Source of the DNA: Lutispora saccharofermentans
Lineage (GTDB): Bacteria > Bacillota > Clostridia > Lutisporales > Lutisporaceae
DNA: 64,000 nt
Assembly (NCBI RefSeq): GCF_024363565.1
Contig: NZ_JAJEKE010000010.1
Coordinates: 62,001-126,000 of the forward strand
Reading direction: 5' to 3'
Shown here piece by piece: positions 3,532 to 22,187 of the stretch. Both the position numbers and the translations under genes were made by a program. The notes below the pieces were generated by a model. The model searched no databases. It saw nothing but the letters and a program-made list of their open reading frames with translations, and was not told the origin of the DNA. Every line of letters starts with the position of its first letter. Position 1 is the first letter of the stretch.

Positions 3532-3658
3532 TTGAACGAGACTTCATTCAGAGGGGGATTCAACCCCTACTGAATGTTAGTCGAGTCCATACTGGACTTA
3601 GCCGCTCTTGGCACCCGCCGCCTATAGAGGCGGGGGTCTTAGAGCGGGTTAGTTCAGT
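3532..3658. repeat. Multi-stem structured repeat, copy 1
   Basis: About 127 bases bounded by TGAAC and GTTCA, which can close on each other. Inside are three hairpins: CATTCAG/CTGAATG with an AGGGG/CCCCT top, AGTCCA/TGGACT, and CCGCTCT/AGAGCGG with a CCCGCC/GGCGGG top. A second, inverted copy lies at 18300-18402 with different but still paired stem sequences. The ends resemble the tail region of IS200/IS605 tnpB elements as I remember them, but no tnpB is present. Confidence 0.6.
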
Positions 3659-3750
3659 GATAAAGAAGCATCAGTAGCCATTGATAACGTCGTTTCTCTC
3701 AAAAATGAAAAATGTCACAATAATGTCACAATTACAGGCACGGAAAATTA

Positions 3751-17426: not shown

Positions 17427-17600
17427 ATGTTGTATTGATTGGTAACGATTGCGGTGTTTCAGAAACTAAGATTTTGTAAGCTTGCATAGGGTTGCGTCAA
17501 AACTCGCTTTGGCTCAAACAGTTGACGCAACATTTCCTATACTGCGCTAACAAACTCTAAGCCCCTTCACAATGCAAACTTATATCAATCAATACAACAT
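17427..17600. repeat. Long nested palindromic element, copy 1
   Basis: Core 17466-17561 is an imperfect palindrome: CTAAGATTTTGTAAGC pairs with GCTAACAAACTCTAAG and TTGCGTCAA with TTGACGCAA. It is enclosed by outer perfect arms ATGTTGTATTGATTG (17427-17441) and CAATCAATACAACAT (17586-17600). The same core occurs in inverted orientation at 18514-18690 with unrelated outer arms. It fills the gap between the MetH-activation gene and metH. Confidence 0.7.
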
Positions 17601-17620
17601 TATTTCGGTACAATTAATAT

Positions 17621-18280
17621 TTAACTGTGAATAGTAGCCTTTCTATATATACAATTTCTGTCCTTGCACCTGCTGCATTTATTTCCCTCGGAGGTGCTCT
17701 CCTGCCTCTGCCATCCTATAAATGCAGTTACCGACTTTCGCGGCAGCATAATACTGCTTTCATTAACGGTAAGCCCTATCCTCGGATATGCCTTCAGAAG
17801 CTCGATTATTCCCTTCTGAAGGGTTATGGGCAGATCTCCATAGCCCGGGCTGTATCTTGAAGTACAGCAGTATCCTTCCTTTAGAGCCTCTATCCTTATT
17901 TCTTCCTGTACCTCATCGCAAAGAGCCTCAATGGCTGCAGAAGCGCATGCATCCATCACTATGCCTTTGGTAAGGTCTGTCTTTGAATAGTATGCGATCC
18001 TCCTATCCGCTTCAAGCCCCAATGTGGCTGCCATCAGCGCACATTTATCCGAATTCCGGAGATGCATGGTCAAATCCCTGCTCTGAAAGATCAAGTTTGT
18101 ATCCTTCAAAGCGATCCTATCCCCGTCTCTTTCAATATCATAAACATTATAAACAAAGCTTTTCCTCAAAGCTCCGCTCATCTCTGCAATGCATTCCGTC
18201 AAAAGCTTTTCAAGCTTCTCATCCATATATTGATGCTTATGGCCCAAGTACCTTAAAACTTCCATCCTGTCTATATGCAT
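17621..18280 (-). CDS. Stand-alone methionine synthase reactivation-domain protein
   Basis: 219 residues matching the vitamin-B12-dependent methionine synthase activation-domain family: the signature RYSPGYGDLPITLQ (about 145-158), preceded by MDACASAAIEALCDEV. In full-length MetH this domain binds SAM and supports reductive methylation of inactive cob(II)alamin; here it is a separate protein that should act on the shortened MetH encoded downstream. The C-terminus adds a cysteine cluster CSRCKDRNC that could bind a metal. ATG with GGAGGG. A palindromic element separates it from metH (about 230 bases) and two repeats (about 440 bases) separate it from metF. Confidence 0.87.
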   Translation of the reverse strand: MHIDRMEVLRYLGHKHQYMDEKLEKLLTECIAEMSGALRKSFVYNVYDIERDGDRIALKDTNLIFQSRDLTMHLRNSDKCALMAATLGLEADRRIAYYSKTDLTKGIVMDACASAAIEALCDEVQEEIRIEALKEGYCCTSRYSPGYGDLPITLQKGIIELLKAYPRIGLTVNESSIMLPRKSVTAFIGWQRQESTSEGNKCSRCKDRNCIYRKATIHS

Positions 18281-18299
18281 AAAAAATCCCTCCGCTTTA

Positions 18300-18402
18300 G
18301 CACTGAACTAACCCGCCCTAAATCCCCTGCGTGTCAAAGGGCGGTTAAGTACAGCATGGACTCGGCTAACATTTTGCTTCGCAAAATGAAGTCTCGTTCA
18401 AA
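18300..18402. repeat. Multi-stem structured repeat, copy 2 (inverted)
   Basis: Read on the minus strand this matches the element at 3532-3658: the same ends (TGAACGAGACTTC and GGGTTAGTTCAGTG) and the same hairpin order, but with stem CATTTTGC/GCAAAATG replacing CATTCAG/CTGAATG and CCGCCCT/AGGGCGG replacing CCGCTCT/AGAGCGG. The middle AGTCCA hairpin is imperfect here (TGTACT). Confidence 0.6.
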
Positions 18403-18490
18403 ATATAATACACTTTAATACATATAAAATGCAAGATAGCCTTTGGCGCTGTTTTGCCCCGAAACAATTTTATGCTGAGTTAATCTGTTA

Positions 18491-18716
18491 TTCTAGCTGA
18501 TAAAAGAGTATTTTGTGAAGAGGCTTAGAGTTTGTTAGCGAAGTATAGGAAAAGCTGCGTCAACTGTTTGAGCCTATATGCTGTTAAATCGGAAAACCTC
18601 ATAAACTTGCTTTAATTTTAACAGTAATGATAAAAGCTACATGCGAGTTTTGACGCAGCCCTATACAAGCTTACAAAATCTTAGCCTTGAAACTTTATAC
18701 TTGTTATCAGCTAGAA
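18491..18716. repeat. Long nested palindromic element, copy 2
   Basis: Outer arms TTCTAGCTGATAA (18491-18503) and TTATCAGCTAGAA (18704-18716) enclose the core shared with 17466-17572 (in reverse orientation). The central loop carries an extra segment of about 70 bases (about 18574-18643) that itself has an 8-bp inverted repeat CTGTTAAA/TTTAACAG. It ends 12 bases from the metF stop codon. Confidence 0.7.
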
Positions 18717-18728
18717 CAACGAGTTAAA

Positions 18729-21811: not shown

Positions 21812-21858
21812 GGCTGCAGGCTAATAAAGTATCATATACTTTAATGCTATACGCTACC

Positions 21859-21970
21859 CTTATCTCTCAGAATTTAAACAAAATCCTGCAGGAATTGACA
21901 CCGCTGCATTCGAATGAGAATGCCGGTTGTCGGGCTTCATTGGGCCAGTCCCTCCACCTCTCTGGATAAG
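21859..21970 (-). promoter_or_regulatory. SAM-I (S-box) riboswitch aptamer
   Basis: Minus-strand leader with the S-box signatures in order: CTTATCCAGAGAGGTGGAGG, GAAGCCCGACAACC, GGTGTCAATTCCTGC and the closing AGAGATAAG. P1 pairs CTTATC (near 21965-21970) with GATAAG (21859-21864). A TATAAT -10 box lies at 21981-21986. With the terminator at 21781-21811 it should stop transcription of the homocysteine/methionine operon when SAM is plentiful. Confidence 0.95.
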
Positions 21971-22187
21971 ATCTTATTCAATTATAACAAATGTTTAAAA
22001 GAAATTTTAAGCCAAATAAGAGCATTTGTCAAGTAAAATCTGCAAAATGGTTTGTTTACATTATAAAGATTTGTATGTATACTTTTATTGTATGGTTTGA
22101 ACGAAGCTTCATTGCTATGAATTGCTTTTGTTTAACGTTGTGCGGGCACCGCATGTTAATAGTGATAAATTTTAGAGGTGATCATTC

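Follow-up and report, generated by a model that had tools for sequence, protein, structure and literature searches.

A structured dispersed repeat with co-varying arms in the methionine gene cluster of Lutispora saccharofermentans and its relatives in other genomes

Results

Two copies in the methionine gene cluster

The window analysed was a stretch of 64,000 nucleotides of the L. saccharofermentans genome (contig NZ_JAJEKE010000010.1, positions 62,001 to 126,000), in which metF (PF02219), copy 2 of the repeat, an activation-domain gene (PF02965), copy 1 and metH follow one another. Both copies lie between same-strand genes in gaps of the methionine cluster, where the original prediction had placed them, and a profile search of the window found these two copies only (Table 1). 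As had been noticed, copy 2 contains the core of copy 1 in inverted orientation, with positions 17511-17587 matching 18498-18574 (77 nt, 87% complementary) and positions 17466-17507 matching 18643-18684 (42 nt, 95%). The further hairpin predicted in the loop of copy 2 was recovered as a segment common to long-loop copies, occurring with both arm types. As DNA strands, both copies folded better than 200 of 200 shuffles. Within the 83% pairing of the outer arms of copy 2, the stretch TTCTAGCTGATAA is perfectly paired. A SAM riboswitch (RF00162, 83.6 bits) was found in the same gene neighbourhood, at window positions 21857-21972 on the minus strand.

Table 1. Positions of the two copies and their parts in the window.
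Feature	Position	Strand	Description and evidence
Copy 1	17427..17600	+	Short loop, type A arms; inverted repeats, fold z -5.4, profile match
Copy 1 outer left arm	17427..17444	+	Pairs with 17583-17600 (18 nt, 94%); fits the family arm
Copy 1 outer right arm	17583..17600	+	Partner of 17427-17444
Copy 1 conserved core, 98 nt	17466..17563	+	Aligned with own and other Clostridia copies; covariation in 31 rows
Copy 1 tip motif AAACTCGC-TTTG-GCTCAAACAG	17500..17521	+	Read from the sequence; motif with paired flanks in several phyla
Copy 2	18480..18727	-	Long loop, type B arms; inverted repeats, fold z -8.6, related copies, minus-strand profile match
Copy 2 outer arm, GTTATTCTAGCTGATA type	18480..18503	-	Pairs with 18704-18727 (24 nt, 83%); found by arm-pattern search
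Copy 2 outer arm, GTTGTTCTAGCTGATA type	18704..18727	-	Partner of 18480-18503; arm-pattern search
Copy 2 extra hairpin-bearing loop segment, ~69 nt	18574..18642	-	Read from the sequence; lies between the tip-motif halves

A family of copies with co-varying arms

DNA searches with the two copies gave at least 56 and at least 64 matching pieces (best 40 of 113 and best 40 of 124 candidates), which merged into at least 63 stretches in 54 fetched loci of the same genome; these counts are lower bounds because only part of the candidates was scored. The outer-arm pattern GTTRTNNTRRCTGATA occurred 143 times in the genome, versus 2 occurrences for the reversed control. The arms of both window copies are versions of this pattern, and the outer palindromes that had been described as unrelated are thus of a single arm type; the differences between them fall at positions variable in the family. 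Full copies are about 150-290 nt long and share the core, differing by modules: arm type A or B, a short or long loop, a 45-nt insert and internal deletions. No ORF of at least 100 aa contains any of the 63 stretches. The two copies lodged in the methionine gene cluster are unexceptional members of this family.

The original prediction had left two alternatives, insertion of the element into the loops of existing hairpins or outer arms that are the element's own and vary while staying paired, and had proposed gathering the genomic copies and asking whether their arms pair. Three of the 63 stretches were without a readable core end and seven were one-armed, and the remaining 53 were used. Over eight positions, the variable arm letters matched between the two arms in 375 of 424 cases, compared with 270 ± 8.6 after shuffling (shuffle maximum 303; none of 10,000 shuffles reached 375). 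At the five positions that vary, the left arm is the reverse complement of the right far more often than chance would give. The result held within each arm type at the five positions, with 144 of 175 matching for type A (shuffled 90.5, maximum 111) and 81 of 90 for type B (shuffled 71.1, maximum 79). Since the arm letters co-vary in the 53 copies, the arms are part of the element and keep their pairing as their letters change, which settles the question in favour of the second alternative; arms in other genera, paired with different letters, support it as well (see below).

Other small repeats were seen in and around the copies. A second dispersed repeat, CACTGAACTAACCCGC ... AATGAAGTCTCGTTCAA, which has two hairpins and variable letters, lies in the window at 18301-18401 (plus strand) and about 3532-3659 (minus strand); its left end was matched 18 times in 16 of 84 loci of the genome, and some copies of the main element carry it within their arms. 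The 45-nt module (TGCCCCAGGGCACC...CAATTCACCTTG) was found at one fixed place in eight copies (L031, L032, L034, L038, L042, L055, L056 and L029) whose arms and loops differ, and 12 loci of the genome contain a similar GGAGCAATTCACCTTA repeat. The module and the GGAGCAATTCACCTTA repeat may reflect a third family of small repeats or an exchange of modules.

Core-less arm pairs and orthologous sites

A search for core-less copies returned 24 rows, of which 14 were mis-pairings inside full copies and ten were arm pairs without part or all of the core. The ten keep inner letters of the element and their break points differ; they look like internal deletions. The close relative G002 shares many sites with the L. 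saccharofermentans genome (G000), the matching stretches being about 87-98% identical. Fourteen orthologous sites were aligned, at least three of them poorly informative. Several showed internal deletions, and at one the inner block was inverted between unchanged flanks (L042:8208-8448 in G000 versus L129:958-1192 in G002). One G002 site (L130) was reduced to the outer palindrome, joined at GCTG, a 4-base microhomology, where L. saccharofermentans has the whole element (L023). Gene contexts at the copy 1 site were compared in eight relatives. In four of them the activation gene overlaps the S-methyl_trans (metH-type) gene, leaving no gap in which a palindrome could lie, and in the other four the ORF calls did not show the gene pair.

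We consider it very improbable that the core inserts into the loops of pre-existing hairpins. The reduced G002 site, with its outer palindrome only, speaks for such an insertion, as do other small repeats found inserted in arms of the element. However, the arms form one homologous family, the core-less pairs retain inner letters and break at varied points, the four gapless relatives offer no earlier palindrome at the copy 1 site, and the exact pattern of the clean L023/L130 junction was matched at that one place only among four genomes. This alternative of the original prediction is disfavoured by the core-less pairs, the G002 sites and the exact-pattern search.

Conservation in other Clostridia

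The core model R1 matched in 39 of 391 Clostridia genomes, representing 25 of 222 genera; in eight of the 39 matching genomes the best 10 candidates were scored. Thirty loci from 30 genomes were aligned in 32 rows, 31 of them distinct. R1 was built from three of these 30 genomes and the alignment was fitted to the R1 structure, in which 90.3% of 901 cells were paired and 87 were unpaired. Two-sided changes were present in 29 of 30 pairs, with 249 two-sided versus 6 one-sided cells, and the covariation score was 0.687, compared with 0.183 for shuffled and at most 0.155 for slid alignments. Outside the core, the arms in other genera have other letters and are still paired, and the internal loops are unsymmetrical and conserved across genera. 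The element is a structured, conserved dispersed repeat whose fold is kept while the stem letters are replaced pairwise, both in its own genome and in Clostridia.

Changes in orthologous arms, counted by eye between L. saccharofermentans and G002, were one-sided about seven times and two-sided once. As the orthologous arms are mostly changed on one side, the pairing was probably set at the moment of copying. We also weighed a repair process in which one arm templates correction of the other whenever the hairpin forms, with no selection for the fold. Such a process would yield two-sided changes with few intermediates, as in the L. saccharofermentans copies and the Clostridia alignment, and could account for the single two-sided change at an orthologous site (L042 versus L129). 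Full copying would, however, erase the unsymmetrical internal loops that are conserved across genera, and the mostly one-sided changes in orthologous arms also speak against it; we regard repair copying as improbable.

The tip motif in several phyla

The exact tip, AAACTCGC-N(2-5)-GCTCAAACAG, was found in at least 116 stretches over the genome collection, where chance would give an estimated ~30 at equal base frequencies. By record titles, the matches listed come from Bacteroidota groups, Burkholderiales, Methylotenera, Desulfobacterales, Campylobacterales, Nitrospirales, Leptotrichia, Clostridia and others. The flanks were examined in 113 of 126 occurrences with the required 75-nt flanks, or 109 after removal of repeats, a set that includes viral-contig loci and a few occurrences within coding sequence; L295, L300 and L301 are among the exact tip matches that are coding sequence. 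Among the matches listed, at least 7 of 10 flanking pairs formed in 98 of the 109 distinct occurrences, compared with 214 of 2180 for shuffled partners, so that the tip stems in several phyla are paired while their sequences are unrelated. With a looser tip pattern, the number of sites per genome ranged from 1 to 139 over 29 carrier genomes, and the reversed control gave 0 on both strands in 17 of the 29. In the remaining genomes the reversed control is not a clean null: because the tip is nearly mirror-symmetric, the reversed pattern matches many of these elements too when C precedes, for example in L184, L186 and L193.

DNA or RNA as the folded form

Wobble was rare, with 761 Watson-Crick, 6 G.T and 11 A.C pairs, whereas tRNA acceptor stems, a small control of 17 stems, had 11 G.T in 119 pairs. 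A.C exceeded G.T in three tallies over all pairs (20:4, 11:6 and 47:31), and A.C mismatches on one strand would be G.T on its complement. An excess of G.U on the AAACTCGC strand was rejected, because all pairs taken together showed the opposite; in the outer arms by themselves G.U is favoured, with 23 G.T versus 13 A.C in a tally of 51 copies from L. saccharofermentans. Mismatches other than wobble also occurred (40 in the tip-flank test, and the 87 unpaired cells of the Clostridia alignment). On the complement strand, the tip loops over the phyla fitted GNA in 67 of 81 and GNNA in 12 of 18 cases (four of these being GNRA), compared with an expectation of about 0.14; in Clostridia the counts were 9 of 12 for GNA and 8 of 10 for GNNA. 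In the L. saccharofermentans genome, 0 of 27 tip loops fitted GNA or GNNA. Excerpts of PMC4686876 describe loops of the GNA/GNNA class closed by G-C pairs as extraordinarily stable DNA minihairpins. In tandem gaps, the complement coincided with the sense strand of the genes in 34 of 48 cases.

A folded form acting as RNA would suit part of these data. Under this explanation the element would be of the BOX, Correia/NEMIS or ERIC kind, spread as a MITE, and a putative transcript hairpin would be processed, or would protect or split operon mRNA, for example through RNase III. Tandem gaps hold 50 of 60 placed copies (a similar share to that of the window gaps, 15 of 20), the complement is mostly in sense there, and both window copies have same-strand neighbours. 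Correia elements are reported, in excerpts of PMC10969869, with both RNase III cutting and inversion. Against this, wobble pairs are rarer than expected of an RNA helix, the 4-nt tips are mostly not GNRA, and the Rfam covariance-model search gave no match overlapping the elements. We consider an RNA-level element somewhat unlikely, yet a serious rival. Since the L. saccharofermentans loops do not fit and the sense-strand bias suits RNA too, a folded form acting as DNA rather than RNA is favoured only moderately.

Search for a mobilising enzyme

Y1 transposase (PF01797) was present in 20 of the 28 carrier genomes and absent from eight, several of them drafts, which included the copy-rich G010, G065 and G398; as a mobiliser it was rejected on account of these eight. 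Integron integrase (TIGR02249) scored over the cut-off in 0 of 28 carriers, and weaker matches were present in all 28 carriers and all 14 controls, as for any tyrosine recombinase. One such match in L. saccharofermentans is an IntI-like tyrosine recombinase of 389 aa (G000:C36:149023-149832, L345), with no element beside it; similar matches were found in G014, G011, G020, G336 and G149, and the L345 protein and its relatives are without profile positions of about 180-231. This recombinase type (365-395 aa, six carriers) was set aside, as the six surrounding stretches were without the element and the element-rich G010 and G065 had weaker matches only.

No full transposon was seen beside the fetched copies, among which the solo ends of the L. 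saccharofermentans genome were covered in part. No shared neighbour gene was found at loci of the other genomes, where the largest cluster of neighbouring ORFs took in 10 of 124 loci, with neither distance nor orientation constant. Carriage by phage was also rejected: few copies, in 8 stretches, were in viral contigs, and three of these were one coding sequence. At type B ends, a TTAANTT-like direct repeat was present in 110 of 136 cases versus 98.6 ± 2.4, in a sequence interval picked afterwards, and 10 of 200 permutations were as good over all intervals. No direct repeat was seen at type A ends.

Discussion

Copies of the element occupy intergenic positions, and some have had their middle part deleted; at one orthologous site, two genomes carry the inner block in opposite orientations. 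The explanation that we tentatively prefer, and hold to be about an even prospect at best, is a REP- or MITE-like dispersed repeat multiplied through a folded strand, probably as DNA. Each copy would be a non-autonomous dispersed repeat that forms a single long, imperfect hairpin, in which the internal loops and the tip are conserved. At multiplication, the folded strand reading CTGTTTGAGC...GCGAGTTT, probably single-stranded DNA, would be recognised, so that only well-paired copies would multiply, by an enzyme presumably acting in trans. After insertion, the arms would be expected to drift one side at a time.

More speculatively, the GTAG and CGTC REPs may be joined by a third widespread superfamily of dispersed hairpins, to which the element would belong and whose hallmark would be the tip CTGTTTGAGC-GNA-GCGAGTTT with stems free to change. 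Its members might multiply as folded single-stranded DNA and depend for their movement on a host enzyme that many phyla share, not on a transposase of their own. Should these readings be right, a single hairpin fold whose tip is fixed has spread over several phyla with no visible transposase, and the tip could serve as bait for the missing enzyme. The co-variation of the arms within one genome lets one ask whether selection sees folded DNA or folded RNA.

Integron attC sites have a fold conserved over sequence, with one strand favoured, and in this they resemble the element described here. Unlike them, the element is scattered singly and not in cassette arrays, and none of the 28 carriers has an integrase over the cut-off. 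REP elements (GTAG and CGTC superfamilies, associated with TnpA-REP/RAYT) are, in excerpts of PMC3733652 and PMC8266576, likewise dispersed intergenic hairpins found in several phyla, with varying stems and short tip loops; TnpA-REP processes them in vitro in folded, single-stranded form. As described there, however, REPs are 20-40 bp long and share a terminal tag, whereas the present element measures about 170-250 bp (full copies range over about 150-290 nt), has several conserved internal loops and shares its tip. No fixed GTAG or CGTC was seen by eye at the ends of the listed copies, and the Y1 transposase is absent from eight of the 28 carriers.

The MITE-like repeats Correia/NEMIS, BOX, RUP and ERIC, as portrayed in excerpts of PMC10969869, are alike in size, inverted repeats, intergenic site, modular variants, inversion of copies and number, with dozens of copies; a tip shared between phyla and arms co-varying within one genome set the present element apart from those descriptions. 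It is short, non-coding and has terminal inverted repeats, as MITEs do, whereas a parent insertion sequence was not found beside the fetched copies and target duplication is weakly supported. Among the papers listed by a literature search, with most subscription papers outside its scope, there was no description of the element, and no paper contained any of six tip variants of 15 or 16 letters. The element may overlap with families of the 2008 catalogue of stem-loop families in 40 bacterial genomes (PMC2267715), which in the excerpts at hand contains structured intergenic repeats, two Clostridium species included. In kind, the element is like REPs and MITEs: it lacks the REP and attC features that were tested and has part of the features of MITEs.
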